Source: Tridacna crocea (lineage: Eukaryota; Mollusca; Bivalvia; Cardiida; Cardiidae). From it: a stretch of 64,000 nucleotides of DNA. Shown here piece by piece: positions 24,477-58,859 of the stretch (the first letter of the stretch is position 1; each line of letters begins with the position of its first letter). The notes under the pieces were generated by a model. The model was not told where the DNA came from, ran no database searches, and saw only the letters and a list, made by a program, of their open reading frames with translations. The stretch covers positions 59,960,192 through 60,024,191 of the forward strand of contig OX031061.1 of the NCBI GenBank assembly GCA_943736015.1, given 5' to 3'. Made by a program: the position numbers and the translations under genes.

Positions 24477-24508
24477 GCTTATGTTCGATCCCGCAGCATA
24501 AGCATTTA

Positions 24509-25612: not shown

Positions 25613-25854
25613 TGTCTTGTTCTATTCTGTTGTAGTTTTGTTCTATTTCTCACACCTCGTTCGTGTCGTTTGTAAGTAAATGGCTGATGAATGTATCACT
25701 GTTTATCAGCTATGTCCGTGTAGTTTGATGTCACTCTTTAATTAGTGTCTTTTTATATTAATCAGTAAGGTGCAAAACTTTTGAGCACTGTCTGTATTAG
25801 AAATCAAACGCTGTGTATTATAGGTAAGTAGGTCACTAACCGGTGGGCGCCATT
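25613..25854 (-). promoter_or_regulatory. Retrotransposon 5' leader
   Basis: 242 bases between the 5' LTR and the gag ATG. I see the primer binding site at its start and no other feature. Confidence 0.7.
25841..25852 (-). promoter_or_regulatory. Primer binding site, tRNA-Lys-like
   Basis: Two bases after the 5' LTR the minus strand reads TGGCGCCCACCG. Its first eight bases are the usual TGGCGCCC complementary to the 3' end of tRNA-Lys; the match weakens after that. Confidence 0.7.
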
Positions 25855-31767: not shown

Positions 31768-32079
31768 TTCCTCCTAGTATCCCAACGTTCCTCAACACCA
31801 TGGATATAGACGGATGTGAAAGTTGCATAAATGTTAAGATCAATACCAATGCTGACATTACATGCCAAGTCCTAGAAGGAGGGACACTTCCGGTTAGTGT
31901 GAAAATTGTAATTGCCGGAGAAGAAGTAGGCAAATGTAACTTTGATAAATCATCCTACACCAAATGCAAAATGACAGAATATATCACCAGCAGTCTGCAT
32001 TTAAAAGAAATTCGCTGCGAGGCAGTAAATGAGGCCATTAGTGACCCGCTCTCTACTTCGACCAAGTTATACGTTGTTG
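31768..32079 (+). CDS. Ig-like domain exon, copy A
   Basis: A 312-base exon with borders tctttacag and gtaggt, phase 1 at both ends, as is usual for Ig-domain exons. It encodes about 104 residues beginning PPSIPTFLN. The canonical Ig cysteine pair is Cys33 (DITCQV) and Cys84 (EIRCEAVN), and the strand-F/G pattern and VVG end suit a domain border. The conserved Trp is absent. Four extra cysteines (17, 20, 57, 67) suggest additional disulfides. An extracellular, ligand-binding role is inferred from the family. Two further copies lie at 39643 and 46727; copy A differs from B at 6 residues and from C at 8 by my count. Confidence 0.78.
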
Positions 32080-37330: not shown

Positions 37331-37332
37331 TT

Positions 37333-38690
37333 TAGCTTGCTTGAGCACAACTTGCTCAAGGGGAGCTTTCAGGATCACCCGGTGTCCGTCGTACGTCGTC
37401 CGTCGTGTGTCTTCCGTCGTGCGTCTTCAATAATTTTTTAAACATCAACTGCTCCTAAACCGCTGGGCCAATTTAAAGCAAACTTGCATTGAACGTTCCT
37501 TGGGACATCCTCTTTTATAAAAATTCACAGAATTTGATTCGATCAAAAATTCTGGTTGCCATGGCAACCAAATGGAATTTTCTGAGAAATTCTTAAAAAA
37601 TCTTCTTCTCTGAAATCACGGGTCAGATTTCAAAAATAATTTCAGAGAGATGTTCCTTTAGTGATCTTTCTTATAAATTGTTTGCGAAATTTTGATCCGT
37701 CAAGAAAGATGGCTCTGGTGAATGTTGGCTTCTTGCAATGTACAGAAATGAAGGATTTTTATTTTAATCATTTTTCTCTGAAACTACTGGTCAGATTTTG
37801 ATATAATTTCATAGCAATGTTCCTTGGGTGACCATTTTTAAATGTTGTTCGCGAAATTTTGATCCGTCAAGAAACACGGCTCTGGTGAATGGGGGATACT
37901 TACACCTTAGGGAAACAAAGAAATCCTTAAAAATTCTTTTTCTCTGAAACCGCTGGTCAGATTTCGAAACAATTTCACAGCAATGTTTCTTTTGAAACCC
38001 TTTTCAAAAACCGCTTGCAAAATTTTGTTCCGTCAAGAAATATGGTTCTAGTGAATTGGGCCTACTTGCACTATACAGAAATGAAGAAATTTATAAAAAA
38101 TTCTTCTGCTCTGAAACGGCTGGTCAGATTTAGCAATAATTTCACAGAAATATTCCTTAAATGACCCTTTCCAAAGACTGTTCGTGGAATGTTGATCCGT
38201 CAAGAAACATGGCTCTGGTGAATGGGGGCTACTTGCACTATAGGAGAATAGAGAAATTCTAAATAATTCTTTTTCTCTGAAACTGCTAGTCAGATTTTAA
38301 AATAATTTCACAGAAATAATCCTTGGATTACCATTTTCAAAAATTGTTCGTGAAATTATGATCCTTCGAAAAACAACAGACACTGTTGGCACCTGCATTT
38401 CGTGCTCTTGTTCGACTTATGTTTATGTCGCTATCGAGCATATGCTCTTCTTCAATAATTTGTCATAGGGTGATCTATCCAAAAATTTATTTGCAAAATT
38501 CTGATTCATCAAAATCATTGCTGTGGTGATGACTCTGGGGGAGGTGACAGATTTTGAAATGACTTTTACATGTGACATTTTTAAAATCGTTTGAAAGTTT
38601 CAATTCCTCAAAAAAATGGCTAGGGTGCTCTCAAAAACTCAGATGAGCGATTCAGGGCCATCTTCGACCTCTTGTTATCTTATTTTTTTC
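37333..38690. repeat. Composite repeat with ~150-base tandem units
   Basis: Starts agcttgcttgagcacaactt, followed by a gtccgtcgt-rich block. Several units of 'ctgaaaccgctggtcagatt' / 'gatccgtcaagaaacatggc' follow, and it ends ctcagatgagcgattcaggg. A closely related copy is 44086-45340, and the 3' half is at 29890-30440. Probably a non-autonomous mobile element; no terminal motif settles its class. Confidence 0.72.
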
Positions 38691-38788
38691 CCTTTTTCTC
38701 TTCTTTTTAAGTTAGAAAAAATAGCAATGTATATAAATATTGTGTACTGATACAACATAATCATTTTCAAATGAATTGAATTTGAAAA

Positions 38789-38811
38789 ATAATAATAATA
38801 ATAATAATAAT
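38789..38811 (+). repeat. (AAT)n microsatellite
   Basis: About eight AAT units in succession. Confidence 0.9.
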
Positions 38812-38904
38812 ATACCAATGTTTAAGAATGTTGTAAATTGCAGTATGCAGTATGTATGTATTTTGTGGAAAATAAATGAAAAAAAAAGTAGTATTTTTTT
38901 TTCT

Positions 38905-39640
38905 ATTCCTTTACCATACAATGGCCCTGAGGGAGAAAGCTTTTGAGAACACTGTGGGAAAATGAGAATATGCTGGAAACCAGTATTTTCTCCTTTTCCC
39001 GCAATGGTTCTACAATTTCTTTCACGAATGCCACCATTTAGCTATGTTCAATTGGTCGTCTGCAAAAGCTTTCAGTATGGACTTCCAAAGTGACCTCCAA
39101 TTTTGTTTTCTAACAACATAAGGACGAATAGATGTTTCCAATTATAAATACTATGATTGTGGAAGCTATAAGGAAAATCTGTGCGTTGGAAAGTGCTCAT
39201 TTATTTGATATTAACCGGTCAAATTATCTTCCCTACATGGTCTATGTATAACATGCATATCTGTGAACTAACCATGCTCAAACAAGGCTTTGTATACATA
39301 TTTGCAAAAATATATGGATTTTTATCAAAATGATGTGTATTTAATAATATTTTTCCTGTTAATTTCCTGTTGATCTGCCTGTTAAAGTAAGACGCTTTTA
39401 ACCAAATATCAGCTGAACTTTGGATCTGTATATACCTTTTTCCAAGGCAAATTTCTAAGAAATGAGAAAGGTGACCTTCATCTTTTTAACTGTAATCCCT
39501 CAGAGACATGATGAGCTTTGTATGTGTCAGAAAAAAAAGTCATATACGTCGTTAAATGACTACGAGATGGATTCGTGAAACGGGCGACATGGAGCACGGA
39601 CAGTAAGAATTGTGGTTTACTTTAGCAATTTTATCTTTAC
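38905..39640 (+). other. Ig-locus unit B upstream part, with internal deletion
   Basis: Matches unit A from about 30620 and unit C from about 45560, but lacks the ~400 bases corresponding to 30805-31210. The junction lies in 'tatggacttccaaagtg' near 39080. Confidence 0.75.
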
Positions 39641-39642
39641 AG

Positions 39643-39954
39643 TTCCTCCTAGTATCCCAACGTTCCTCAACACCATGGATATAGACGGATGTGAAAGTTG
39701 CATAAATGTTAAGATCAATACCGATGCTGACATTATATGCCAAGTCCTAGAAGGAGGGACACTTCCGGTTACTGTGAAAATTGTAATTGCCGGAGAAGAA
39801 GGAGGCAAATGTAACTTTGATAAATCATCCTACACCAAATGCAAAATGACAAAATATATCACCAGCAGTCTGCATTTAAAAGAAATTCGCTGCGAGGCAG
39901 TAAATGAGGCCATTAGTGAACCGCTCTCTACTTCGACCAAGTTATATGTTGTTG
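39643..39954 (+). CDS. Ig-like domain exon, copy B
   Basis: Same borders, length (312) and phases as copy A. Compared with A the changes are Asn28Asp, Thr32Ile, Ser44Thr, Val54Gly, Glu71Lys and Asp93Glu. Both canonical and all four extra cysteines are kept, and the frame is open, which argues for selection or very recent duplication. It is either one of three consecutive Ig domains in a single protein or an alternatively spliced exon; the sequence cannot distinguish these. Confidence 0.78.
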
Positions 39955-39955
39955 G

Positions 39956-40297
39956 TAGGTATGGTGACATAGTTCTCAACGTTACTCTGTTCTTTTTCAT
40001 TTGATTCGTACCCGGTTTAGCATGAAACCTATGTGGTCATAAGTTCGAATCGCCAGTAGGACCAGTTTCTTTCCTAGAATAGATAATCGAACATGTAAAA
40101 GGATTCATTCTTCTCTCACCACTGATCGATGTGAGAATGCGGCTAGTGGCTTAAGAATAATATTGTGCAAAGCACTGGTTAAATGAAAATCTAGCGAAGA
40201 TAACAGCAGTTGAACTGGTCTTCGCAATATAACTGAAATAAAAGTGAAAGTGGTTCTATAGATTTTTCAAACATACAGTTTAAATAGCTGCGTGTGG
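39956..40297 (+). repeat. Conserved downstream part of Ig-locus unit B
   Basis: Matches 32080-32440 (ttcgaatcgccagtaggacc ... cttcgcaatataactgaaat) and is broken off by a LINE 3' end at 40298. Confidence 0.75.
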
Positions 40298-40488
40298 TTG
40301 ACTGTAGCATTATCAAAAGATTTATTAAACCGATTTAATAACAAATGAGCAAAGTTTTTTCACATTTTTTTTCTTTGCCTTAAAGTAAATATAGCATAAC
40401 ATAAAGAGATTAAACCATTTTTAGTCACATTTCAGGATCTCTCTCTCTCTCTCTCTCTCCTTCTCTCTCTCTCTCTCTCTCTCTCTAT
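40298..40488 (+). mobile_element. LINE 3' end only, with (CT)n tail
   Basis: 'tagcattatcaaaaga' to 'tttcaggatctctctct' matches 37150-37320 of the longer LINE. The (CT)n tract at 40439-40487 occupies the position of that LINE's tail. Strong 5' truncation is typical of LINE insertion. Confidence 0.65.
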
Positions 40489-40490
40489 TT

Positions 40491-42295
40491 TTAGCTTACC
40501 TGAGCACGAAGTGCTAAAGGGTAGGCTTTTGTGATCGTCGTCCGTCGACTGTCGTGCGTCGTCCGTCTTGCGTCATCCGTCATGCGTCGTCCACAATTTC
40601 TTTAAATATCTTCTCCTCCTAAACCACTGGGCTAATATTGATGAAACTTGGCAGGGATGTTCCTTGGGTCAAGCTCTACCGACATTGTTCAAGAGATTGA
40701 ATTCCATAGCAAACCAAAAGGAAAACCTAGAAGGCCCTGAAGGGCCTGAATATGCTCTACTGGCAGAGATTTTGCTTTTAAATCAAGCATACATCAGGAA
40801 TTCATTATGCAAAGAGACAAAAAATTGACATTTTCAACTCAAAATGGCTACTTTTCCATTACTGTTTGTTGATTTTTTTTCAAACTCAACGGGGATAAAA
40901 AGCTATTGATGGGATAAATAAGCTGAAAAATTCACAAAAATCTGATCACAAATAAAAACTTTACAATGTAAATAAGCAATGAAATTGTTCAACTTGAAAT
41001 GACTAGTTTTCCCATACTGTTTGTTGGATGTTTTTCAAAATTAATAGGATTTAACCTATTGATGATATAAACAAGCTATGCAAATTTCATGAAAATCTGA
41101 AAAAAAAATGCAGACTTTATCGCATAAACAAGAAATGAAAGTTTTCAACTTCAAATGCCTACTTTTCCCATACTGTTTATGTTTTTTTTTCAAAATTCAT
41201 AGGGTTGGAGCTATTGGTAAGATAAATAGACTCTGCAAGTTTCATGGAAATCTGACCACAAATACAGACTTTATCCCATAAATAAGAAATGGAAATTTTA
41301 AACTTGTAATGGCTACTTTTCCCATACTTTTTGTTGGATGTTTTTCAAAATCAATGGGGTTGAAGCTATTGCTAAGATAAACAAACTATGCAAGTTTCAT
41401 GGAAATCTGACCACAATTACAGACTTTATTGCGTAAACAAGAAATGGAAATTTTTAAAATTGAAATGGCTACTTTTCCCATACTGTTCGTCGGATTTTTT
41501 TCAAAATCAATAGGGTTAAAGCTATTGATAAGATAAACAAACGATGTAAGTTTCATGAAAATCTGACCAAAAATGAAGACTTTATCGCGTAAACAAGAAA
41601 TGAAGGTTTTAAACTTGACATTGCTACTTTTCCCATACTGCTTATTGGATTTTTTTCAAAATCAATAGGGTTGAAGCTATTGATAAGATAAACAAACTAT
41701 GCAAGTTTCATGGAAATCTGACCTCAAATACAGACTTTATCGAGTAAACAAGAAATGGAAATTTTAAATCTGAAATGGCTACTTTTCCAAAACTGTTTGT
41801 CGGATTTTTTTAAAAATCAATAGGGTTAAAGCTATTGACGAGATAAACCCTGTAAGTTTCATAAAAATCTGACCAAAAATGAAGACTTTATCGGGTAAAC
41901 AAGAAATGAAGGTTTTAAACTTGACATTGCTACTTTTCCCATACTGCTTATTGGATTTTTTTCAAAATCAATAGGGTTGAAGCTATTGATAAGATAAACA
42001 AACTATGCAAGTTTCATGGAAATCTGACCTCAAATACAGACTTTATCGAGTAAACAAGAAATGGAAATTTTAAATCTGAAATGGCTACTTTTCCAAAACT
42101 GTTTGTCGGATTTTTTTAAAAATCAATAGGGTTAAAGCTATTGACGAGATAAACCCTGTAAGTTTCATAAAAATCTGACCAAAAATGAAGACTTTATCGC
42201 GTAAACAAGAAAAAGACTAACGGACGGACGGACGGACGACGGAAACCACGCCATGACATAAGCTCTGCTGGCTGAAAGCCAGTAGAGCTAAAAAT
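40491..42295. repeat. Composite repeat with ~150-base tandem units and a 306-base higher-order repeat
   Basis: Begins agcttacctgagcacgaagt and a cgtccgtc block; ends gaaagccagtagagct. About nine units contain ggctacttttcccatactgt, 'aaaatcaatagggtt' and 'agactttatcgcgtaaacaa'. Two 306-base blocks (41575-41880, 41881-42186) are nearly identical. No coding capacity. Confidence 0.8.
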
Positions 42296-43460
42296 AGCAA
42301 AATCTTTGAAAGTCTTTTTCTCTGAAACTGGAAAGCGCAGAGCTTTGATATTTGGTATGTAACATCTCCTGTGAGACGTCTACCAAGCTGGTTCATATGA
42401 TGCTCCTGGGGTCAAAGCTGGCCCCCACCCCGGGGGTCACAAATTCGAAACATAGGAACAAAGAAAGAAAACTTTAAACTTCTTCTTCTCTGAAACTAGA
42501 ACGTGTAGACCCTTGATATTTGGTATGTAGCATCTCCTTGAAGACCTCTACCAAGATTGTTCATAATTATGATGCCCCTGGGATCCAAACTAGCCCATCC
42601 CGAGGGTCATAAGTTCGAAACATTAAAACAAAGAAGGAAGAATTTAAAATTCTTCTTCTCTGAAACTGGAAGGAGTAGAGCTTTGATATTTTATATATAG
42701 CATCTTCTATTAGATCTCTGCCAAGTTTGTCCACATGATGTCCCTGGGGTCCTAACTGGCTCCGCGTCAGGGGCCACAAGTATAAACATTGGAACAAAGA
42801 AGGAAAACTTTAAAACTCTTCTTCTCTCAAACTAGAAGGTGTAGAGCTTTGATATCTGGTATGTAGCATTTCTTTGTAGACCTCTATCAAGTTTGTTTAT
42901 ATGATGTCCCTGGGGTCAAAACTGCAACCGCCCCGGGGGTCGTAGCTCGAAATATAGGATCAAAGAAGGAAAACTTTAAAATTCTTCTTCTCTTAAACTA
43001 GAAAGTGTAGAGCTTTGATGTTTTGTATGTAGCACCTACTAGTGGACCTCTACCAAGTTTGTTCATATGATGCCCTTGGGGTCAAAACTGGTCCCACCCC
43101 GGGGGTCACAAATTCGAAACATAGGAACAAAAAATGACATCTTTAAATTATTTTTCTCTTAAACTGGAAGGTGTACAGCTTTGATACTTTGTATGTAGCA
43201 TCTCCTAGTAGACCTCAACCAGGTATGTTCATATAATGCCCCTAGGGTCATAACTGGCCCCGCCCCGGCGTTCACAATTTTAAACATGGGAACAAAAAAG
43301 GAAATATTTGAGATTCTTCTTCTCTGAAACTAGAAGGTGTAGAGCTTTGATATTGGTATGTAGGATCTAATAGTGGACCTCTACCAAGTTTGTTCATATG
43401 ATGCCCCAGGGATAAAAAATGGCCTGGCCCGGCGGTCACAAGTTTTAAACAGTTCTAAAG
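42296..43460. repeat. Tandem ~150-base units, inverted relative to 33730-34900
   Basis: About eight units with 'agagctttgatatttggtat', gttcatatgatgcccctggg and 'aacataggaacaaagaagga', the reverse complement of the family at 33730-34900. It abuts the previous repeat directly. Confidence 0.8.
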
Positions 43461-44085
43461 GAAGACTTTAAAATTCTTCAGAGTGCTTTGCTATTTGGAA
43501 TGTAGTGAAGCTGTTCTAAGTTTGTTAGCTCTCCTGAGCACAAGTTCAGTGAGGACAAAATTGGATCACCTTGGGTCGTAAACTAGGTTACAATGTTAAA
43601 TTAAAGACATACATTGTGAGGCCACATTTCTTGCTCAGCTGATTTGAAAATTGGTCAGAATGTTTGTCTTCATAAAAATCTCACGTGAATCTGCATTTAG
43701 TGCTTGTCCGGAATATAACTTTATCTCAAGTCAGAACGAATTAAAACTTGATATGCAAGAACAATACCTCTACCTAACACGGATTTTGAGTAATTCCACT
43801 TTGATCTTCACTTTTACAGTATTTCTTGCTTATCCAGAATGGAAATTAGAAGTCTCAAGCCAAGTTGACTTGCGACTTTGTTGTATTGCCTGCCCTTTGC
43901 AACTATTATACCTCCTCGACAACTGCCGGTGGGATAGGCATATATTGCAACACTTTGCCGCTCTTGCATTATCATTTGGCCTTGAACTTCAATATTTTGT
44001 ATTTATCTTCATTGTAGACCTTTACTGCGTAGTACTCAGGTGAGCGATATAGGACCATCACGGTCGTCTTGTTTTTTTAGCTCAC
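43461..44085. other. No gene recognised
   Basis: Contains a short AGCTCTCCTGAGCAC start at about 43530, related to the composite repeats, and the end-like 'ctcaggtgagcgatatagga' at 44036. A 130-codon open frame at 43651-44043 has no recognisable domain and lies within this repeat-like block. Confidence 0.4.
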
Positions 44086-45340
44086 CTGGGAACAACGTGC
44101 TCAAGGGGAGCTTTTTAGGATGACACGGTGTCCGTCGTCCGTCGTGAGTCTTCCGTCGTCAACAATTCTTTAAACATCAACTCCTAAACCGCTGTGCTAA
44201 TTTGGACCAAACTTGACTGGCATGTTCCTTGGAAGATCCTCTTTAAAACTTGTTCGCAGAACTTGATTCTATAAAAAATGAATTTTCTGAGAATTTTTTT
44301 AAAAATCTTCTCTGAAACCGCTGGTCAGATTTCAAAAATAAATTGTTTGCGAAATTTTGATCCGTTAAGAAACATGGCTCTGGAGAATGGAGGCTTCTTG
44401 CAATATACAGAAATGAAGGATTTTTTAAAAATTCTTCTCTGAAACAGCTGGTCAGATTTTGAAATGATTTCATAGCAATGTTCCTTTTTCAAAAACTGTT
44501 CGCGAAATTTTGACCCGTCAAGAACATGGCTCTGGTGAATCGGGGCTACTTGCACTATAGGGAAATGAAGAAATTCTTAAAAAATCTTCTCTGAAGAAAC
44601 CGCTGGTGAGATTTTGAAATAATTTCACAGCAATGTTGCTTGCGTGACCATTTTCAAAAAGTGTTCGCAAAATTTTGATCCATTAAGAAACATAGCTCTG
44701 GTGAATGGAGGCTACTTGCACTATACAGAAATGAAGAAATTCTTTAGAATTCTTCTTCTCTGAAACGGCTGGTCAGATTTTGAAACAATTTCACACAGAT
44801 ATTCCTTAAATTACCCTTTCCAGAGAGTGTTCGCGAAATTTTTATCCGTCAAGAAACATGGGTCTGGTGAATGGGGACTACTTGCATTATACGGAAATAG
44901 AGAAATTCTAAACAAGCCTTTTTCTCTGAAACTGCTGGTCAGATTTCTGAATAATTTCACAGAAATAATCCTTGGATGACCCTTTTCAAAAAGTGTTCGT
45001 GAAATTATAATCATTCGAAAAACAACTGCCATTTGTTGGCACCTGCATGTGGTGCTCTTGTTTGACTGATGTTTTTAGTCGCTATCGAGCCTGTGCTCCT
45101 CTTCAATAATTTGTCTTTGGGTCATCTATCCAAAAATTTATTTGCAAAATTCTGATTCATCAAAATCATTGCTGTGGTGATTACTCCGGGGGAGGTGACA
45201 GATTTTGAAATGACTTTTACAGGTGACCTTTTCAAAATGGCTTGGAAGTTTCAATACCTTAAAAAAATGGCTATAGTGCCTCAAAACCTCCGGTGAGCGA
45301 TGCAAGGCGATCTTGGTCCTCTTGCTATCTTATTTTTTTC
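44086..45340. repeat. Composite repeat with ~150-base tandem units
   Basis: Starts agctcacctgggaacaacgt; units share aaaccgctggtcagattttg; ends ccggtgagcgatgcaaggcg then 'cctcttgctatctta'. Close relative of 37333-38690, belonging to Ig-locus unit C. Confidence 0.72.
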
Positions 45341-46726: not shown

Positions 46727-47038
46727 TTCCTCCTAGTATCCCAACGTTCCTCAACACCATGGATATAGACGGATGTGAAAGTTGCACTAATGTTAAGATC
46801 AATACCGATGCTGACATAATATGCCAGGTCCTAGAAGGAGGGACACTTCCGGTTACTGTGAAAATTGTAATTGCCGGAGAAGAAGGAGGCAAATGTAACT
46901 TTGATAAATCAGCCTACACCAAATGTAAAATGACAAAATATATCACCAGTAGTCTGCATTTAAAAGAAATTCGCTGCGAGGCAGTAAATAAGGCCATTAG
47001 TGACCCGCTCTCTACTTCGACCAAGTTATACGTTGTTG
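46727..47038 (+). CDS. Ig-like domain exon, copy C
   Basis: 312 bases, phase 1-1, same splice borders as A and B. Compared with A it has Ile21Thr, Asn28Asp, Thr32Ile, Ser44Thr, Val54Gly, Ser63Ala, Glu71Lys and Glu89Lys; all six cysteines are kept. It is the copy closest to the transmembrane exon (48204) and therefore the one most likely to be membrane-proximal among the three. Confidence 0.78.
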
Positions 47039-47111
47039 GTAGGTATGGTGACGTAGTTCTCAACGTTACTCTGTTCTTTTTCGCTTGATTCGTACCCGGT
47101 TTAGCATGAAA

Positions 47112-47345
47112 CCTATGAGGTCATAAGTTCGAATCACTAATAGGGCGATTTTTTTCCTAGAATTGATAATCGACATTGTGACAGGATTCATTCTTCTCTC
47201 ACCACTGATCGATGTTTCGACGATGGTTATGTGAGAAAGCAGTATGTGGCTTAAGAATAGTATTGTGCGAAGCACTGGTTAAATGAAAATCTAGAGAAGA
47301 TAATCTTGAACAGGTGAACAGGTCGTCGGAATATAACTGAAAAAT
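47112..47345 (+). repeat. Conserved downstream part of Ig-locus unit C
   Basis: Matches 32165-32375 with several changes (ttcgaatcactaataggg ... aggtcgtcggaatataactg). Confidence 0.7.
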
Positions 47346-47397
47346 AATGCTGAAATAAGTAAAAAAGTTTTAAAACACTTTTTCCCACCACGTAAGA

Positions 47398-47581
47398 AAA
47401 ACCTTCTATACCGATTTCGAAAATGACGCCGACAGGTGCTTTTAATTTGAAGGAGCTTGAGCTGTCATTTTGCAATACGGTCGAAGACAGGAAGAAGATT
47501 TCGGTACTTATAATTGTAAAGCGGCCACGGAATATTTCAATAAGGCTATCGCAAATTCAATTCTAAGTATTGCATCTACAG
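47398..47581 (+). pseudogene. Second half of another Ig domain (one-base frame disruption)
   Basis: Between acceptor-like cacgtaag and donor aca|ggtatg. One frame gives TGAFNLKELELSFC; after one surplus base another gives QEEDFGTYNCKAATEYF, with the classic Ig D-x-G-x-Y-x-C motif. The exon is 184 bases where phase 1-1 needs a multiple of three, so the shift matches a single-base insertion near 47485. It could instead be a sequencing error, or the true acceptor could lie elsewhere. The first half of this Ig domain was not found. Confidence 0.6.
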
Positions 47582-48203
47582 GTATGAAGTTAACACTTAA
47601 GCTGCTAAAAGCACAGCATTTTGATCTTGATATACACTATCCAAAAAGGAGAAATTCTTTACAAAAATGCATTGAATGCGCATATTTTTGTTTTTCTATC
47701 AGCTTGAATGTTTCATTTAACTTATTTAGTGGATGAAGGCTGAAAGGTTAAATTATCACTTGATCATGGTCATTAAAACTCGGGATTGCGTGGAAACTGT
47801 TAAAGCAACGTCCTCTCCTTTACTAGCATTTGCAGTCATTATATATTAAGATAATACTTTTTGACATTTGATCGACAGTGTCTGCTTTCCTGAGAAATTG
47901 TAGATAAAAGCAATCCTGATAATACCAAATTTTGGTCTTTTCCCTAGGCTGAGAACGTCCAGATTATTCATTTGCCTCTGCAAGGATTAATCTTTAAAAG
48001 CATTCCAGTTATTTCTAGCATTTTTTTTTTTGCTCAAGCAAGTTTAGGAGTATCCTCGGGCAAGACAAGGCATCATAAAAGAACTTGTAAAATGGAAAGA
48101 ATACATAAGTAATTGAATTGTCACCCTGATATTTCTGAAATGCCTATGAAAACCGCGCACTTTCATTCAACTTATTTCACAAATTTTATTTTACCGGCTA
48201 AAG

Positions 48204-48344
48204 ATAAGAAAATCTCTGAGAGCAGGGAGAAGACTCTTCCATCGAAATCTATTGGTATCGGTGCTGCAGCGGGAGTTGTCGTTCTAGTGCTTGTGGTCAT
48301 TTTGGTAATAAAAAGGAGAAGAAATACAGATGGAGATAAAACAG
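48204..48344 (+). CDS. Transmembrane exon of the Ig-like receptor
   Basis: A 141-base, phase 1-1 exon (acceptor ggctaaag, donor acag|gttggc). It encodes a short charged stalk (KKISESREKTLPSK), one hydrophobic helix of about 21 residues (IGIGAAAGVVVLVLVVILVI) and a basic stop-transfer KRRRN. It is a single-pass, type I-like membrane anchor, which fits the preceding Ig exons and following cytoplasmic exons. The donor is not a strong consensus, but phase and composition support it. Confidence 0.75.
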
Positions 48345-48389
48345 GTTGGCTAAGAAAAAAAAAGTTATGTCTTCGCAATCGGTAGGGAA

Positions 48390-48560
48390 ATATCTTGAAA
48401 AAAGAGGGTTCTTAGTTCGAAACCCTAGTTCGGCAAATTTCTTTACGAGGATTGATGTTGGTCATTACGACAGGATTCATTGATTCCTCAACGGTGATCA
48501 CTGTTCGCGGTGTAACTGAAATAATGTTGAAAACAACGCACAAGCAGTTAATCAACGAAT
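48390..48560 (+). repeat. Diverged copy of the unit-associated dispersed repeat
   Basis: 'ttagttcgaaaccctagttc ... gacaggattcattgattcc ... gtgtaactgaaataatgttg' resembles 32165-32390. This shows that the 3' part of the Ig unit is itself an interspersed repeat (possibly tRNA-derived, since gttcgaatc resembles a B box). Confidence 0.5.
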
Positions 48561-48864
48561 TTTGTTATCTTACGTACGCTTGAGATAAGAATTTTGTGAT
48601 GTCGTATGTGGCATCATCTATACCTCTTTGAGGGAAGTGAATCAGGTTTTATTAATGGAAACTACACTTTGTAAATATTTTGTTTGCATTTAGTGTTTTG
48701 TGATAAAACTACTCTGACATTCTACCGCTTAAATTGCGTTATCGTATGAAAAGAACAGACATGCCAAATGGCTAGTTCAATAACAATACTGTTGAATGGT
48801 CTAATAAGATATCATCCCAGCTGATGTCATATCCTAATTACATGTATGTCTGCGAATATTTCAG

Positions 48865-48937
48865 CCAGTGAAAACATTCCAATGGATGCTTCAAAAGGTC
48901 CTGCTATACTCAACGAACCGAGAGATGAACAAAATGG
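48865..48937 (+). CDS. Cytoplasmic exon 1 of the Ig-like receptor
   Basis: 73 bases, acceptor cgaatatttcag, donor gtcagt, phase 1 in and phase 2 out. Encodes SENIPMDASKGPAILNEPRDEQN, acidic and proline-bearing, with no hydrophobic segment. It joins the phase-1 end of the transmembrane exon and the following 26-base exon without breaking frame. Confidence 0.62.
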
Positions 48938-51900
48938 GTCAGTTCATTGATACAATTCACGGATCGTATTTATCAAATATTTATCTCTAAACCTTTTAAC
49001 GCAATAGGAGAAAACAAAAGCTCAAATCACGGACGGTATAGATCAAGACCAAGCTAAACGTTAAGTGCAGTCTAGATCCGTATTCATGGATCATCCTTAA
49101 CCCTTATCCTACTGTATATATGAAGTAAAACTTTAAAGACGATAACAAAAATAGGAACGACGTCAGTCTAAATGTATATATCGGAGAAACATATCTCCAT
49201 ATTGGGCAGTGTAGATCAAAGATGAGAATGCAGAGAACGTGCAGTCTGATCTTGATCTAACTTGTCCTCTAAAGGTTAAAGATTCGCACTTAGTAGCAAA
49301 GATATTACTAGTATTTTGTCAAATTTTCGAGGATTTTCTTCATTAGAGATTGAAACAACTTCTGATTGCCTAAACCAAGTAGTTTAGCCAATTAGAATTT
49401 GTATAACTTTCAAAATTAGATGATTATTTCATTTATTTGGCTCTGAAAAAGTCACGGTAATCCATCCATCAATGAATTATGATCATGATCCTACAGGTGG
49501 TGAATAAAAAGCTAGAGAGCAAAATAAAGCATTTAATGGGGATATATTTAGTTCAATGCATGTCTACTGTCCAAACCTTAAAGATAATCAGAATTGTGAT
49601 AACCATAAGTTAAAGATAAATGGATAATGTTTCGTAATCTAGCTTCGATCATCAGAAAGTTTTGCCACAGAGGACAAGCTTTCGTTGCTGTCGATGTTGT
49701 TGTTTTTGATAAACTTCTTAGAAGGCTTTATACATGTATATGAGCTATGCTCTGTGTAAAAGGACAAAACGTATCTGCAAAATATATCGACCAATATCAG
49801 CCTTTGCATAGTTTATGGTATTCCATATACCACCTCGGAGTAAAATTTTACGATTTTTTATTAATTCAGATTGATTTTTTTCGAATTCATTACAATATTA
49901 AAATGTATAAATGAACAAAAAAAAAAAAATCTTAAAGACACTGTGAGGTTTGAAAGCTATTCCAAATGAAGGGTATAAAAACAATTCTCATCCAAGCACT
50001 GTAACTGTGGTCGTCTGTTGCTTTAACAGCAAAAACTTCTCAACTTTTGAAGCATACTTTCATTGAGGTTTCATCTGAACGATTCAGATTCAGAGACATG
50101 CACAAATTTGTTTCCGCTGTATTTTCTTTTCCACGCCCAACCATACATGGTTTCCTGAAACCCAGAGAAACGTTGACTCACAGTATGTGGTACGATGTTT
50201 CGCAATAGGATAGAGATCCATGGATGGATTGTATGAGCAGTTAAAATTCCATAAGAAGGCTCCAAAGTATTGCTGTTGATTATTTTTTACGGTCAAAGGG
50301 ACACTGTGTCTTTATGATTACCATCCTATGATTGTGACCAAAATACAATTGAGCAATTCTGAGCGAACTAAAAAATTCATAGCGAAAAACAATTTAAAGA
50401 CAAACCAAGAAAGACATTCGAGTCTAAGTGTAAGGCGGTTTCGAACAGATATCTCAACAAAAGTGGTAAAAAGCATGAAGTCATGCCGAATTAAAATTGA
50501 AATGAAATTTTCGATAACAGACATCATGTAAGAGAAAATTGGACAAATCAGTTTAGAAATGGAATGAAATTGACAAAAGCGATATCAAAAGAAAGGCATA
50601 GATTTATATTATCTATCTAAAGTAAGGTATAGATTTATATTTTTAAGCGTAAAACGGGACCTCATATTTTAACAGAAGTGTGGTTTATCTGGTTATGCTT
50701 GCTTCAGAACAAAAAAACTTAAGGTCTCAGTAAAGTCCAACTGAATAAACAACCTCTTTATAAAATAAAAGTAAATTTTATATTAACCGTGTAAAAATAT
50801 GGCGATTATTATGACTTACATGATATGTAAAAGTGCAGTTTGTCAAAGGTCCAGGCAAGTCAGAAAAGAAGAATGTTGAAACTAGAACAATACCTACCAT
50901 GACGCATTATATGTTTGTTAACATCAGTGACCGCCCCTGATTAACCGGTATTTCGTCGTAAATCTCCGCACTGACGTAAGATTGATGTAAGCATCACATG
51001 ATTACTCAAAGCGTTGAACTGTCATTCATTTGATCCTTTTGTCCCTATTCTTTGCTTGAAAAACGTAAGTTTATCGACATTGTAAACAGAACGACTACAC
51101 AGGGTGATCATTGCTCGATCAATGGCATCTCTGAAACCTACGGGCTTGTCCATGCATTTTCGCACCCGTATATCACGACAACCAATGCAGTAACTGACAC
51201 GTTTGAGTTTTCTCTGATCTTACAGGTGTGTGTTGTCATGTGATGTGATGGGTTACCCGATATATTTTTGAGTTACAAATAGTAAAAATTACCTATTTTG
51301 GACTCTACAAGAACTGAAACATTACTGGAATGGGCAAAATTCAGTGGATCCCCATGAACCCAAAACTACCTATACATCAAGATTTAGTCAGTTGTTCGAC
51401 AAAATGGACTGTATGGATCAATAATTTTGTGTTGACTTGCTTTCTTGGTAAAGTACATCACGGACAGCAGATTATTGATCATATATAAAACAATGTGTCC
51501 AGCTGTGTTAATTATGTTAATTATCAAACACGACCTCACAGACATTTGTCGGTCTTGTTCACATTTTTTTAAAGACTTTAATCGACAAAGCCTTTACTTA
51601 TCGTGTTCATGATATGCGGGTGACCCAGGTCCATCAAAACCTTTATGTTGTAGTAAGTCATCGGTAACAGTGACAGATTAACAGTAAAATTTCCCTAGAC
51701 TATTCTAAACAAGTAAGCGTACTTTATCAGAAATATTATCTTGCTGTAATGTTGTCTCTTGAATCCTGATGGCTACGAAGTTAACCAGTTGCTAATGCTG
51801 ATTTTCCTACATGTCTTTTGTACATGCATGTCTTGGTTAGGCTTCACTTTACCTCTCCCAGTTGTGGTATATATGCTATTAACTTGGCGTCGCCTAAGCA

Positions 51901-52073
51901 TTTTACTGCATAGATCTATGTAAATAGATCTAGTAGTAGAATGAAAACCAGGGCAACAAAAATCTGTAAATGAATAGATAAAGACACCGATAAAATGTCG
52001 GTTGGTGCAAGTTAAGATGTTGCTTTGTCATGGTTCTTAAACAATCTGTTTAGATTCATCTTCTATCTTTCAG
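48938..52073 (+). other. Intron of the Ig-like receptor (inferred)
   Basis: About 3.1 kb of A/T-rich sequence. A short dispersed repeat (cagtctgatcttgatctaac) lies near 49235. I see no exon, element end or RNA gene in it. Confidence 0.45.
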
Positions 52074-52099
52074 GTCCGATGCCTATGACTCCATTATTG
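52074..52099 (+). CDS. Cytoplasmic micro-exon 2
   Basis: 26 bases between a strong acceptor (cttctatctttcag) and a good donor (gtatgt), phase 2 in and phase 1 out, the only combination that fits both neighbouring exons. Encodes SDAYDSII. Tyr followed three residues later by Ile gives a Y-x-x-I site, although Asp at -2 is not the ITIM consensus. It is short, so support comes mainly from borders and phase. Confidence 0.5.
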
Positions 52100-52109
52100 G
52101 TATGTATTT

Positions 52110-52460
52110 AGTCCAGTCAAATTGTGAGAAGACCCAAAACAAATTGCAACAAAAACACTTTTTTTGTTTTCAACATCCTTAGAGACACCTTTTTAACATA
52201 TGTAAAGTAGGACGAAATCGGAGGATATGAAATTTGACTTTTTAAGCTTTTTTGAATTCGTATGAATTTTGCCATTTTAAGCTTTATTACAGCTCATCTC
52301 GCAGGTTTTACATGTAATTCCTACTCGACTTTTCTCATGAAAGTAACAGTAAAACCCACTAGCAACTTGTTACAACATGTCCACCATGATTTACATACAA
52401 GGCAGCATTCCTTCTGTCAATTTAGTTCTACATTGGAGTTGGTTTACCCCACCCACTAAT
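52110..52460 (+). repeat. Inverted-pair repeat, left copy
   Basis: Shares in order 'ttagtccagtcaaa', 'acccaaaac.aattgcaaca', 'agtaggacgaaatcggagga' and 'ttaccccacccactaatac' with the reverse complement of 55410-55770. Confidence 0.7.
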
Positions 52461-53734
52461 ACAAAGGGAGGGACCACTGTACATATACAGTAAACTATGG
52501 TTGGACCGTTGAAATGGGTATTTTACATTTATATTGTGAATAAATTTTTGTTTTTTGAAATACTGATTAGTACTTCAGACCATATTTTTTCTCTTTAATT
52601 GTACAGAAAGTTGTCAGTAACACTTTGTTAAAGTAGTGGACCCATAATACATGTGTTTCTAGTGCAGCATGGCATAATATTTCTTGACCACTGATAAAGA
52701 CTGATTTATACAGATTTAATACTTTTGCACATTTTTAACCAACCAGAAATTCCTTTGATGTCTATCTTCAAATTATCTGTTGATACTTTTGTTTGTTTCC
52801 AGAAAAGGGAGGTAATTATCACATCTCTTTGTAATGAGAATAGAGTGGTTTTAGGTTTATAAATGATAATTCCAGGAAGGACAAAAATGAAAAACTGGCT
52901 CGATGAAAGTAGTACAAAAATACTCATTTTTAACATCAGCAAATGTTGTAGGATAATAATATAGTGGAAATACCTGTTTTCTATTACGGGTCCACTACGT
53001 TAAGTGGCATATAAATTTGGTGTTGAAGAAGCGGTAGTTTTGCGGTCCGAATATAATATAGCCATTTGACTGCCATTCCACATAATCGTTGCATGCTAAT
53101 CATCATGTGACATTCCAACTTGCATTTGCAAACTAGCATGAAAACTAGATCATAGGCTACGTATCTGTGTAAGTAAATACCGCAAAAGACCTCTTTTAGT
53201 GTTCTTCCTACAAATGGATACGTTAGCAGATACTGACTTACTCTTTACAGATATTTAAAGTGCAGAGTTCCACAGAGATACACTGGGGATATTGCCTATG
53301 TAGAATTATCATCAAGATAACATATAGATCTTTTAATATTTAAGCATTGTATGATAAAAAAAAAAAAAAAATAACTTGTAGAAATATGATACGTCATGAT
53401 TGTCTGTCCTCAGTTCACTTGCAAGATGTAACTGGGATCAATAAAAATTATCAAACATGTCTGTTTCACTGGACTTGTGAATTCTACTCTTCTTCAGAGG
53501 CCTAAAGTTAAGTGTGCCCTACATGGATAATTCAACTTTTCAGGATTTTTTCCCATCATCTCCACCTGCCATTCATGGTAATAATGTAAAAGAAAAAGTG
53601 TGCCTTTATTCGGAATCGGGGCAAAATGGGACAGCACCAGCCTAGTGGCAGTTGCAAATGAACAAGAAAAGCTGAAAACTTTTTTAGTAGTCAGAGCTTG
53701 TTGGTGGTGAAGGTACAACTTACAAGTTAACGGC

Positions 53735-53759
53735 AACAACAACAACAACAACAACAACA
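53735..53759 (+). repeat. (CAA)n microsatellite
   Basis: Eight CAA units in succession. Confidence 0.9.
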
Positions 53760-54425
53760 AATGTCCAGGCATCTTTTCAAATAGGCACTGTCTTTTATTT
53801 ATGATCAGGGTATCGGGCGATTTCTGTGCAGGCACCAGGCGGCAGAAGTCTTTTCTGACTGGAGCCGACCGGCTTACACGCAACTAATGAAAGTTGTGAT
53901 TACAAAATTCTCTGTTGTCGGGATTTTGTCACTGCATGGTTCGTAACTTATCGATTAGTCTTTCCTATATATAAGATACGTCCGAGGCATGGACCTACTG
54001 GTTGGCTAGAAAAAAAAAATTAACATAGTGCACACCTAAGTTCAAAAGATGCGATAGAACCTAAATCATCTTCTATATATGCCCGATGTCATTCAGTTAT
54101 CATAAAAGACCTGCTGGTATTTTTTATAAAGAGTACGTTTTGGACAACCCTTGCTTATGGATTTGAACACATACATGCAAATATCATTTGCTTAACTTAG
54201 AAAGTGAGTCCCTCATCAAGTTTGATAGACACCAATCACAAAACCAGTATTATGTTTTTTTCTTAACTTAAAATGGCTACGAATTAGATAAGAAATTGTT
54301 GCTGGAATGCAAAATAAGATGAGAAACAGAACATTATATGGTTGAATAAGGAAACTTTGTATCTGTGAGTTATAAATCTAAGTTATAAGACTTGCAATCA
54401 TTGGTTCATATGAAAATTGACTTAA

Positions 54426-54642
54426 CCCTTTCCCAAACGACAAATTTTGGACCCTTCCAAACCGAAAGAGTTTGCAGACGACAATTTTAGATTTGGAGAA
54501 AATTGCAGAAAGTTCTCAAAAAGGGTAGAAAACTGTAGGAAAAGGAGAAATTGCTCGTTACGAGCCATTTCTCCTTTTTCCACAGTGTAATCAAAGACTT
54601 TTACTGCAGACACGTAAAAACCAGGGCTTGTTTGGGAAAGGG
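54426..54642. repeat. TTAA-type MITE, best-preserved ends
   Basis: The ends are perfect inverted repeats CCCTTTCCCAAAC and GTTTGGGAAAGGG, each flanked by TTAA (54422-54425, 54643-54646). The central palindrome is ggaaaaggagaaattgctcg and its complement. 217 bases, no coding capacity. The TTAA target and CCCTTT start suggest mobilisation by a piggyBac-type transposase (inference). Confidence 0.88.
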
Positions 54643-54873
54643 TTAATATGCCTCTGCAGTTGATAGCGGTATATTACCTTTTATTAAAATGGTGTTTCAA
54701 GGTTTGCTTATTTTTAGAAAAAGCAATAGGTTAAGTGTAAAACAACAACAACAACAAAAAAAAAGGTTGAACATTTTGTTAATTTTCATAGTTTGAATTA
54801 TTACCTGCATCTTGTCAAAAACATCCTAACACAGTTTTCTAACTGTATCTGAAGTTAAATCACAATAATTCAA

Positions 54874-55168
54874 GTTTATTCCTACGTTTTTCGTTGGAGT
54901 GTTGTTTGGCAGGACACTTCAGAGCACAAGCCTATTACTGGTGAAACCAAAGAAATACACGAATATGTGAGCTGTCACAGTGGAATGATTGAAAAAAAGC
55001 TGATTGTTGCATAAAAGGGTGTTTATTCCTACGTTTTTCGTTGGAGTGTTGTTTGGCAGGACACTTCAGAGCACAAGCCTATTACTGGTGAAACCAAAGA
55101 AATACACGAATATGTGAGCTGTCACAGTGGAATGATTGAAAAAAAAGCTGATTGTTGCATAAAAGAGT
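54874..55168 (+). repeat. 147-base tandem duplication
   Basis: Copies at 54874-55020 and 55021-55168 (gtttattcctacgtttttcg ...) are identical except for one base in an A-run, so very recent. Confidence 0.92.
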
Positions 55169-55409
55169 ATTCAACCAAACATTCAAGTTTATTCATGAAC
55201 AATTTTGTTGTTTTACAAAATCTATAATAAGACCCAGATTCGGCATTCAGATTCCATCACATGACATTTTGCCAGACTTTATCAAATGACAGCCATTGAA
55301 AGAATGTGTGTAGGCTTTTAATAAGGATTTATCATCATAAAGGGAATGATCATGCACATAGCAGTTCACTTCCCCACCCAAAAAATGACACTGAAATTCT
55401 AATACAAAA

Positions 55410-55770
55410 AGTAGTGGGTGGGGTAAGTTGATATTGGCTCTTTCTTTTTTTTAAGTAGAAAAACACAAAGAAGAAAGAAAAATATTTAAAAAAAACTAGA
55501 TAATTAAACACCAGAGTTATCAGAAAATGTTACATGCAATAGAAAGCTCAAAACAGTTCGAATATTTGTAAAATTTACTCATAAGTTACTATTTGTACAC
55601 AAAGTTGGGGCTGGAAACAAAACGCGCGAAAAAATCGAATTTCATATCTTCCGATTTCGTCCTACTTTTTATATATTGTTTAGGAAGGGTAACCGCTCAT
55701 AAAAATCAACAAATGGCTTATGTTGCAATTAGTTTTGGGTTAAGCCCTTTTTTTCATTATTTTGACTGGA
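55410..55770 (-). repeat. Inverted-pair repeat, right copy
   Basis: Reverse-complement relative of 52110-52460, similar over most of its length with indels. Together they could fold the intervening ~3 kb in pre-mRNA. Confidence 0.7.
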
Positions 55771-56261
55771 CTAATTTCAATATCTATTGATCTTCGTGTT
55801 CAAGACTGGCAGAACAGCACCTTTTCATTCTAGCTCTAGTTCATTCTAATCTTCCACCAAGTTTAATGTAAAAGTGTCGGAGTAACCTAGTGGAAGATTG
55901 TATTAAGTGAAAATAAAGAGCACATGAAGACCAACGGGTCTTTTTTTTTTTAACATAACAGTAAAAACCGTTTAACCCGTACAAAGTAAAGTTCTATAGC
56001 TTGTAACAACATTTCCACGAACAAAATTTAATGAAATAATGTGTATCATATAGATGTAAAATATTTTTTTAAAATCCGAATGAATAAAACAAGATAAATT
56101 AAGTCACTGTATTATCAACTTTCTGCTACTGTATTTTTTTAGGATTTTTTTTCTCTCAAAACTATTGAAGTTGACAATATCAGAAATTGAGAACAATATA
56201 GCAACTTAATTCATAGTGTTGCATTACTAGTTCTACACGAAAATCATGTGATTTTTTATAG

Positions 56262-56420
56262 TAACAACCTATGCAAATGTAGATAATAGAGATCAAGGTA
56301 GCGAAAACGTCAAAACTGCTGGACCTAGTTCGCTGAAAGCCGAAGCAAATACTTCTGAGCCGGTGCCCATACCAGAGGAACAAGATGAGGATCTAAGAGA
56401 CACTGAAACTATAAGAACAG
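56262..56420 (+). CDS. Cytoplasmic exon 3, ITSM-like tyrosine motif
   Basis: 159 bases, phase 1-1 (acceptor ttttttatag, donor aacag|gttt). Starts TTYANVDNRDQGSEN and continues with an acidic, proline-bearing tail (EPVPIPEEQDEDLRD). TTYANV fits the T-x-Y-x-x-V/I switch motif (ITSM); Y-A-N also fits Grb2-type SH2 binding. Motif assignment is by pattern and the function is inference. Confidence 0.65.
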
Positions 56421-57116
56421 GTTTTATAAAATTTGTAGTCTTATTGGCCTGAATGTTTCACTTTATTTCTTACCCGACATCTAAGGGAACCATCAGCTTC
56501 CTCATTCATATTTAGATTCGGTGGATATATTCTTTAAAAAATCACGTATTCTCCAACCATTCTAAACGGCAGTAAGACTACTTCTGGAAACAATTCTTAA
56601 TTCCTAAGTAATTAGATTAGCAACTATACAAATCTCGTACATATAGAATACTAGGTAATAAAATGATTGGTCATTGCCGACTCTGAACTGGAGGTAATTC
56701 TTAGTGCTATGATATCCCTGAAAATTTTCCGGATAAAATATCCCACGCAATAGAAAGAAGGTCCGTATCTACACAGAGTTAAATACGATTCCAAATATGG
56801 TATGATGACGAAATTTTGGTACCAAACACGCATGCATTGGTTTGCGGTTTTCTGTGACAAAATCGTACGCAATTATATTCATGCACCATCCATATAAATG
56901 AAGTTATTATCGACTAATTCATTATCTTTTAAACTTTGTTTATTGACTTCTTCATTTAACCTGCTCCTGACCTTTATGCTGAACATATAAGTAGGCATAT
57001 AAATCGAACTCCATATTGACATTCGGAAAGTAATCTATACACGGAAAGGCGCTTATATACAAAAGTAAGAATTTTCATTGATTCAAAATTAAGAAATATT
57101 TCTGTGACTATTTCAG

Positions 57117-57191
57117 ACATACCGAATGCCGCTCCGTGCGATGCCGAGAGTAAAAATACAATTTTAATTTATGTAAACAATGTTGATCTGG
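57117..57191 (+). CDS. Cytoplasmic exon 4, tyrosine motif
   Basis: 75 bases, phase 1-1 (acceptor gactatttcag, donor gtcagg). Encodes IPNAAPCDAESKNTILIYVN followed by NVDL. The tyrosine is followed by V-N-N, a Y-x-N type site; the context (YVNNVD beside YANVD in exon 3) suggests the two exons are related by duplication. Confidence 0.6.
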
Positions 57192-57479
57192 GTCAGGTTA
57201 AATGAAGTAATACCATTTTTTACGAAAATGTCACTAATTCAAATTCTTTGTCGTTGAAAGTTACAGGTATATAATGAAAGTATTACAGTACAATATTGTA
57301 GAAACTTTTCTGGTGCTTGTAATTAACTTATCGCAGCGTAAGAACATTTTTACATCTCGCGCGACCTTCGGTTTGGTGCCATATCAAATTTTCTCACACT
57401 CCTTTAATCAAATACAACGTCCAGGAAAAGTGCTAAAACAGAATATTCCGCACCATTTCCCTAGCAAGACTTAATTCGT

Positions 57480-58580
57480 ATAATGTGTATCTATAAGATA
57501 GTATAACGATTATTAACCACATTATTTCTGTATGTGGTACTCATATTCGTTCCCATATACTATTACAGGTATAAGACGGCCGTTTTTATGTTCATTCTGA
57601 AGGGCAAAATGCACATTTTATTATCCGATCTATTATGTAAGATCCTTTTTTCTTCATCCGATTATTAGTATATGACACTTATTCGCATATTTAATCAAAG
57701 ATTTAAAATGTTCCTTTAACATACCAAATCAGCAATGTAAGATAGCCATTTGTTTGTTTTCATTTCAGATCAATTTTGTGGGAAGCTCATTTTTAATTCT
57801 CAGTTATTGTTTAAGATAGGCCTACTTGTTACAATGTCCGATAAATAGTGTAAATTGCACGTTTCCTTTTTTGTATCAAGGGTAAAACGATGCTTGTTTC
57901 CATATCCAATTAATTGTGTAAGATTTTCATTTCCATGTTCGTTCCATGGTTCTAGGTTTACTTAAAACTGTAAGATGCTCTTTTGTATATGTGGTAAAGA
58001 TAGTAGGATTCTCGTTCTAATATCAGATCAATTGACCAGTTTTTCTTTTCCACGTTCATTCAATACTTGTAAGATGCTTGTTTTTGTATTAGTTAAATTA
58101 CTCGTTCTCAAATCAAATCCTGGGTGTATGGTACTCGTATCCGAGATTAAAAATAATTTTAGATGGTAGTTTTCTTATCCAAACAATGAAATATGATAGA
58201 TTTGTTCCTATCTGCAGGAAATAGTGCAAGATACTCATTCCCAACTCCGACTAGAAGCTCGTTTAATCATTTATTAGTGCAAAATGATCGCTTTCAAACT
58301 AAATAGTGAAAGGTGCTAGAATTCTTAAAATACACGTTTACATATCAAATCCTTAGTGTAAGATCTTGCTTCCGTATCTTATAACAAGAGTATGATGCTT
58401 AATTCAATATCAAATCTATAGTGTAATGCACTCGTCCCTATATCCTCATAAAAGCAAAAGATGCCAGTGAATGAGGTGGGCAATTAAGGGCGCACTGTTC
58501 CATATACAATTAAATGTTTCAGATGTTTCTATGCTTAATCAATCATGTAGAATGCTCGTGAAGAGTTTTAAGCGTTAATT
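57480..58580 (+). repeat. Highly diverged tandem array in the last intron
   Basis: A loose ~45-60 base motif built around 'gtgtaagatgctcgttcc' and 'atatcaaat' recurs many times, for example near 57735, 57820, 57910, 57975, 58065, 58250, 58355 and 58430. Individual copies are too diverged for unit borders. Confidence 0.5.
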
Positions 58581-58644
58581 GTACATAATCAATGAGACTT
58601 GATACGCAGTAATTGACCGTCATTACCTCTTATTCTATTAACAG

Positions 58645-58721
58645 GCACAGGTTGGCAACCCGGAACCAAAGACCTTGTTTATGCTGATCTAGACATTCCA
58701 ACAGAAAGGGAAGCAATTTGA
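58645..58721 (+). CDS. Last recognised cytoplasmic exon, ITIM-like motif
   Basis: Acceptor ttctattaacag, entered in phase 1, ending at TGA 58719-58721. Encodes TGWQPGTKDLVYADLDIPTE then REAI. LVYADL matches the ITIM consensus (I/V/L/S-x-Y-x-x-L/V/I). After the stop, broken frames still read like a tail (see findings), so the stop may be secondary. ITIMs recruit SH2 phosphatases in vertebrate receptors; the same role here is inference. Confidence 0.68.
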
Positions 58722-58859
58722 AATCCGCCGAGTCACACACCGAATATATGTAAACAGACTTTAGTAAAGTTGCTGAACAACTGTCTGAACCGCCAGATAG
58801 TGAATCAGAGATTATTTACGCCCATCAGGAATATTTCGTAATTGGGATTGTTATCTAAC

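Follow-up and report, generated by a model that had tools for sequence, protein, structure and literature searches.

A tandem array of immunoglobulin-type receptor genes in the giant clam Tridacna crocea, with a candidate inhibitory motif kept in the tails read

Does a chain of short exons in the genome of the giant clam Tridacna crocea belong to a gene for an inhibitory receptor of the immunoglobulin (Ig) type and, if so, of what kind and in what condition? The chain lies in a stretch of 64,000 nucleotides (C6:59960192-60024191; "the window" hereafter denotes the whole of this stretch), and a preliminary description had presented it as a candidate receptor of the SLAM or PD-1 type. Searches over the 1.05-Gb genome (31 contigs, one haploid assembly) place the window within a tandem array of some 21 genes for single-pass receptors of the Ig type, one of which it holds. 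A COX1 on contig 31 has a translation 97% identical to that of a Tridacna derasa entry (next best 84%) which, the collection being clustered at 90%, identifies the genus. The best explanation, towards which the evidence tips on balance, is that this is a receptor gene whose tail, with an immunoreceptor tyrosine-based inhibitory motif (ITIM) and YxN sites, damps or re-routes haemocyte activation. The features concerned are listed below in window positions, IgA denoting the first-Ig exon and IgB a second, canonical Ig exon.

31768-32079, + strand: IgA exon, copy 1; phase 1-1, borders intact; missed in the preliminary description
39643-39954, + strand: IgA exon, copy 2; phase 1-1, borders intact; likewise missed
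46727-47038, + strand: IgA exon, copy 3; phase 1-1; the Ig-like exon of the preliminary description
47461-47582, + strand: remnant of the IgB exon; truncated; likewise missed
48204-48344, + strand: transmembrane exon; phase 1-1; hydrophobic run of 20 residues followed by KRRR
48865-48937, + strand: 73-base tail exon; phase 1-2
52074-52099, + strand: 26-base tail exon; phase 2-1; codes DAYDSI
56262-56420, + strand: 159-base tail exon; phase 1-1; codes TTYANV
57117-57191, + strand: 75-base exon (IYVNNV), rejected; dispersed-repeat sequence within an insertion of about 1 kb
58645-58721, + strand: last coding exon with the ITIM LVYADL; stops at a TGA where the paralogues continue
58724-58828, + strand: counterpart of the lost tail end (NEYMSI and IIYANQ in paralogues); not read in the window, one TAA inside

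Six of these exons (the third IgA copy, the transmembrane exon, the 73-, 26- and 159-base exons and the last exon) have AG/GT borders, the last one an acceptor only, and join in one continuous frame. The borders of the first five are kept in three paralogues, at 58.53, 59.65 and 60.17 Mb on the same contig, in which the exon lengths are either unchanged or exactly 3 bases apart (the 60.17 gene has 144 instead of 141 and 162 instead of 159). The 26-base exon, coding DAYDS(I/V), is present in all seven genes that have a full 159-base exon, and among these the acceptor and phase of the last exon are kept in the window and in five of the six paralogues. The tail shows ratios of replacement to silent substitution (Ka/Ks) of 0.30-0.42 in five of six pairs (Fisher p 4.5e-5 to 0.005), and by these substitution counts the older paralogue pairs are shown to be under purifying selection. 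Because junctions and phase are kept among the paralogues and the tail has such Ka/Ks values, the chain is taken as coding sequence and not as a chance alignment of open frames. The AG/GT chain first described, with its borders and phases, is thus confirmed by the paralogues for these six exons; its remaining member, the 75-base exon, is a repeat within an insertion and finds no such support.

The array is formed by receptor units on the + strand of C6 between 58.46 and 60.20 Mb, with the window inside it. IgA has 28 matches genome-wide, 25 of them in the array (one partial) and three at 19.3-19.6 Mb of the same contig, and the transmembrane exon has 24, 21 of them within the array and the other three weak and outside it. 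Matches to the 159-base exon (ten, of which seven are full and three partial), to the opening part of the last exon (seven) and to the closing part of the tail, here called the tail end (19), all lie in the array and on the + strand; a TAA lies inside four of the 19 tail ends, the window's included. Along the contig the units run in the order IgA, IgB where matched, transmembrane exon and last exon: a last exon comes before the next transmembrane exon for 19 of the 21 transmembrane exons, and an IgA match precedes 19 of the 21. Counts of IgB are lower bounds, the best 150 of 604 candidates having been scored, and eight of the 21 transmembrane exons and ten of the 19 last exons (3 of the 12 distant ones) were read as sequence. 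The two most similar units, those of the window and of 58.53 Mb, are 98% identical over 8.5 kb and have in common three IgA exons and a broken IgB. A second, more distant group occurs on the - strand at C6:19.27-19.56 Mb, where three IgA relatives (28-33% identity) have Ig_3 matches nearby.

The identification of LVYADL as an ITIM, already made in the preliminary description, is strengthened by its conservation across copies. The pattern [I/V/L/S]xYxx[I/V/L] is found in all seven last exons of the subfamily, three of which are identical in protein, and, as judged by eye, in the three distant ones, so that it is kept in all ten of the last exons that were read, among them three in which the tail end is lost; the variants are LVYADL, VVYADL, LVYAEL and SVYTDL. 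The frame of the motif fits the splice phase in eight of the ten by the borders seen (in the 59.94 and 58.61 Mb units by the acceptor only), and phase 1 is accepted into this frame in two of the three distant units. Since at least one ITIM core appears in 9.7% of shuffled window tails, the motif in a single copy is weak evidence, and it is the conservation that counts. The share of shuffles in which all tyrosines matched Yxx[ILV] or YxN was 0.7%; as the tail had been seen before this pattern was picked, the figure counts for little.

The last exon of the 59.65 gene continues beyond the point at which the window stops, reading GSGWQPGTKDLVYADLDLPTEGETIRNSAEPHNEYMSIDFSKVREQLPKPLDNESEIIYANQ, and the complete tail carries DAYDSI, ATYANT, LVYADL (the ITIM), NEYMSI and a C-terminal YANQ. 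YxxI sites are present alongside the ITIM and the YxN sites. In the three distant units read, the ITIM is LVYAEL or SVYTDL and the end is YSNQ or YVNQ; the window, 58.53 and 58.98 copies are without the last two tyrosine sites. The tyrosine of the 159-base exon is present in all seven genes with the full exon and, in a shortened form, in three more, its motif being TTYANV in the window, ATYANA in the 58.53 and 58.98 genes and ATYANT in the other four. The YAN that is kept constitutes a YxN site of the Grb2 type, and YxN is generally recognized as a site of this type. The same meaning is given to the motif in PMC5302901. An immunoreceptor tyrosine-based activation motif (ITAM; YxxL/I, 6-12 residues, YxxL/I) was considered and rejected: YADL and YMSI stand 18 residues apart in the 59.65 tail, and the window tail has no second YxxL/I within that range. 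In the 58.98 gene the VYADL segment of the last exon is tandemly duplicated, as VVYADL followed by IVYADL.

When the 59.65 gene is set beside the 60.17 gene, IgA in the outer part shows differences at 2 of its 69 silent sites (Ks 0.03) and the tail at 29 of 89 (Ks 0.43), and the 3.8 kb upstream of IgA are 96.7% identical; as judged from these two genes, IgA and its upstream flank seem to have been recently exchanged or converted, the tails having long diverged. Satellite-like repeat arrays of roughly 155 and 166 bases lie between the IgA copies of the window (33722-45031), and these arrays may drive the duplications of the IgA exon.

The family is assigned to the Ig type on the basis of IgB, which exceeds the Pfam threshold as Ig_3 in both paralogues tested (E 9e-12 and 3e-11). 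Compared with the paralogue L037, the window lacks about 195 bases (a size taken from two aligned blocks); this deletion took away the acceptor of the IgB exon and roughly 156 bases at the front of its 279, so that the remnant is probably not spliced. The Ig domains of the preliminary description therefore stand for the family, and with less assurance for the window, whose Ig-like exon is below threshold and whose IgB is broken. IgA has two invariant cysteines 51 residues apart together with further invariant cysteines, and no tryptophan in the window copy. A comparison with an Ig-domain profile gave no convincing match (probability 1.3%, E 0.041), although the two cysteines aligned, and neither did a profile search of the PDB (best E 0.27, to the unrelated RavZ; Dscam Ig 0.76). 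The domain DUF6145 was listed below cut-off for 6 of 25 IgA members (E 0.0047) and was taken as chance. One membrane helix is seen in the transmembrane exon. No charged residue lies within the membrane run of the eight transmembrane exons read, of 21, and a membrane charge of the paired-receptor kind was rejected on this ground; signalling through the receptor's own tail is therefore expected.

An ITIM/YxN receptor of this kind would bind a surface ligand through its outer Ig domains; on clustering, its tail would be phosphorylated by a Src-type kinase, after which the ITIM would recruit SHP2 and the YxN sites a Grb2-type adaptor, and haemocyte activation would be damped or re-routed. A candidate for the SHP2 partner is encoded in the same genome, in which SHP2-like SH2 exons occur at C17:1.121-1.124 Mb (best match 83% identical over residues 45-102).

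A number of observations weigh against this interpretation. The gene model is known from genomic sequence alone, a TAG lies within the second SHP2-like match, and motifs alone do not give the direction of signalling. A scan for leader exons found no convincing leader, 5' end or signal peptide; the 59.65 and 60.17 genes have a leader candidate in common to which nothing in the window corresponds convincingly and whose frame diverges between the two soon afterwards. IgA is weakly Ig-like (Ig_3 matches, all below threshold, in 5 of 25 members, best E 0.0086), and its fold prediction from the three window copies was unusable, with a predicted local distance difference test score (pLDDT) of 32; since IgB is broken, the window ectodomain rests on this less certain domain. 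In the 60.17 gene one extra base puts the matching acceptor of the last exon out of phase, an in-phase AG standing 7 bases on, and in the 59.20 Mb unit the donor of the 159-like exon and the acceptor of the last exon fail to meet in the ITIM frame, so that, as far as the borders can be read, this unit must contain a further border or exon that escaped notice. Finally, the changes derived since the split from the 58.53 twin are 9 replacement and 2 silent in the window and 5 and 3 on the twin branch, and the ratio in the window is such as might be expected under relaxed constraint.

The condition of the window copy is the point on which the alternative with most life in it turns, namely that the family is real and this copy a pseudogene, which is a serious possibility, though we incline to doubt it. 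The excess of replacement changes speaks for it, as do the deleted acceptor and front half of IgB, the TGA in the last exon, the TAA in the lost continuation and the want of any visible start exon. Against the twin, the tail gives a Ka/Ks of 0.81 (11 changes, p 0.72). On the other side, the six remaining exons of the chain have open frames and borders, the skipping of IgB, a 1-1 exon, keeps the frame, and Ka/Ks is 0.41-0.42 when the window tail is compared with those of the 59.65 and 60.17 genes, although that history mostly predates the damage. The copy retains its three IgA exons, transmembrane exon, DAYDSI, TYAN and ITIM. With IgB and the two final tyrosine sites gone, what remains may be either a receptor in reduced form or a gene in decay. 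We lean slightly towards a living family with a window copy under relaxed constraint.

A further possibility, and an unlikely one, accepts the array as described and takes the receptor for an adhesion or activating one, whose tail serves mainly as a scaffold of Grb2/Src type and has no inhibitory role. The five tyrosine sites of the complete tail agree with this in comprising two YxN sites and only one full ITIM, and ITIM-like motifs exist outside immunity. It is the ITIM, on the other hand, that persists in every last exon read, also where the tail end has gone, and this favours the ITIM/YxN receptor.

The receptor of SLAM or PD-1 type, with immunoreceptor tyrosine-based switch motif (ITSM), IYVNNV and ITIM, is very improbable and may be regarded as already largely refuted. 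Its motifs are in frame in the window, but TTYANV fits the ITSM pattern (TxYxx[V/I]) in one of the seven genes only, the window copy, which removes the ITSM as a feature of the family; the fit looks to have arisen through changes derived on the window's own branch. IYVNNV, which fits neither ITSM nor ITIM, comes from a dispersed repeat and does not hold as a tail motif. No V-set match exceeded the Pfam cut-off in the exons tested (below it for IgB of two paralogues, unlisted for IgA, the 5' part being unseen), and IgB, the sole canonical Ig domain observed in the family, has lost its front in the window. What survives of the inhibitory-receptor plan is thus an Ig-type single-pass receptor with an ITIM tail spread over small exons, and not its SLAM/PD-1 assignment.

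The repeat that contains IYVNNV (57117-57191) is matched on contigs C1-C18, on both strands, among the best 150 of 207 candidates. Of these 150 listed matches, the weakest of which (E up to 1.8) may be chance, 34 have E <= 0.01 and only three lie in the array. A copy on C2 shares 83% identity with the window DNA along 90 bases and 87% along 63. The stretch sits inside an insertion of about 1 kb (about 56874-57880 in the window) that is absent from the 59.65 gene, and the 75-base exon was rejected on these grounds. As a 1-1 exon it can be omitted with no frame change, and the frame stays open whether it is included or not; it may be a spliced-in, repeat-derived exon, a possibility without support in this analysis. 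The repeat itself is unnamed and has an open frame of about 25 codons, with 147 further listed matches outside the array.

A chance chain of exons in non-coding DNA, suggested by the ease with which exons as short as 26 bases are found by eye, is scarcely credible, as the preliminary description had already argued from the splice fit, given the junctions and phase kept in paralogues, the order preserved across 21 units and the signs of purifying selection.

Other features of the window include a THAP domain (1709-2158, + strand), a DDE_Tnp_4/HTH_Tnp_4 transposase (4615-5544, + strand), a YqaJ or viral-type alkaline exonuclease domain (7096-7821, - strand) and, at 20754-25621 on the - strand, two long reading frames that resemble, by eye, gag and pol of a Ty3/Gypsy-type retrotransposon. 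A direct duplication of 125 bases (54874-54998 and 55021-55145) is probably very recent, as its copies are 100% identical.

Among known systems, considered here as described in the available parts of the papers cited, a closer functional parallel would be a CD22-like tail of ITIM and YxN in a family whose genes are clustered, as those of Botryllus FcoR and mammalian LILR are. CD22 and LILRB likewise have an Ig ectodomain, one helix and ITIMs, and the closest case so far worked out of a tail that uses both routes is that of CD22, in which ITIMs and a Grb2 YxN site occur together (PMC5302901). CD22 has three ITIMs whereas the clam tail has one, and the likeness is functional, with no homology claimed. 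Botryllus FcoR (53 loci) is a clustered multigene family of Ig receptors whose tails carry ITIM, hemITAM or YxxI/L/V core motifs; its receptors have V-type Ig, sushi and C2 Ig domains, whereas the clam exons tested, the 5' part being unseen, showed neither V-set nor sushi (PMC12065747). The Hydractinia Alr complex is also a large Ig-type gene complex, with ITIM or ITAM on candidates (PMC12065747, PMC11999971), and differs, in a comparison by description only, in being cnidarian and in having V-set and I-set domains.

Within bivalves, the IgIT receptors of the oyster Crassostrea gigas, including CgIgIT2, share with the clam receptors an Ig make-up, a single membrane helix and an immunoreceptor tyrosine motif (PMC11999971). 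In that review CgIgIT2 is ITAM-bearing with five Ig domains in the text and inhibitory in the cited title, and IgIT signalling is named in reference titles. These receptors are described as individual genes, unlike the 21 clam units with their ITIM and YxN tails and divergent first domain, a contrast that again rests on descriptions. Oyster CgSiglec-1 is reported to have two I-set domains and is assigned inhibitory activity in a cited title (PMC5877582). A search of a protein collection with the clam tail returned nothing at E <= 10 among 1333 candidates, and a wide protein search gave three matches to Ig proteins, two of them from fish and the third unnamed. The literature searched, whose coverage leaves out most subscription journals, yielded no paper on an Ig/ITIM array in giant clams, and in the main text of the T. 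maxima genome paper "immunoglobulin" occurs 0 times (PMC11700175).

A more far-reaching idea, offered as speculation and improbable at present, is that the array is a germline-coded and rapidly reshuffled recognition system in which IgA modules are copied and exchanged from gene to gene and tails constrained, and which sets tolerance to algal symbionts or self; if true, it would be a molluscan counterpart of natural killer (NK) receptor or allorecognition clusters in a photosymbiotic animal. Clusters of ITIM-tailed Ig receptors have been described from mammals, one tunicate and one cnidarian, and oyster has yielded single Ig receptors carrying motifs of this sort. The 21-unit clam array, a case of turnover of an outer module with a conserved inner switch, would extend receptor clusters of the birth-and-death kind to a mollusc, one that is host to photosynthetic algae, and would permit a direct test of ITIM-type braking in symbiont tolerance or self recognition.

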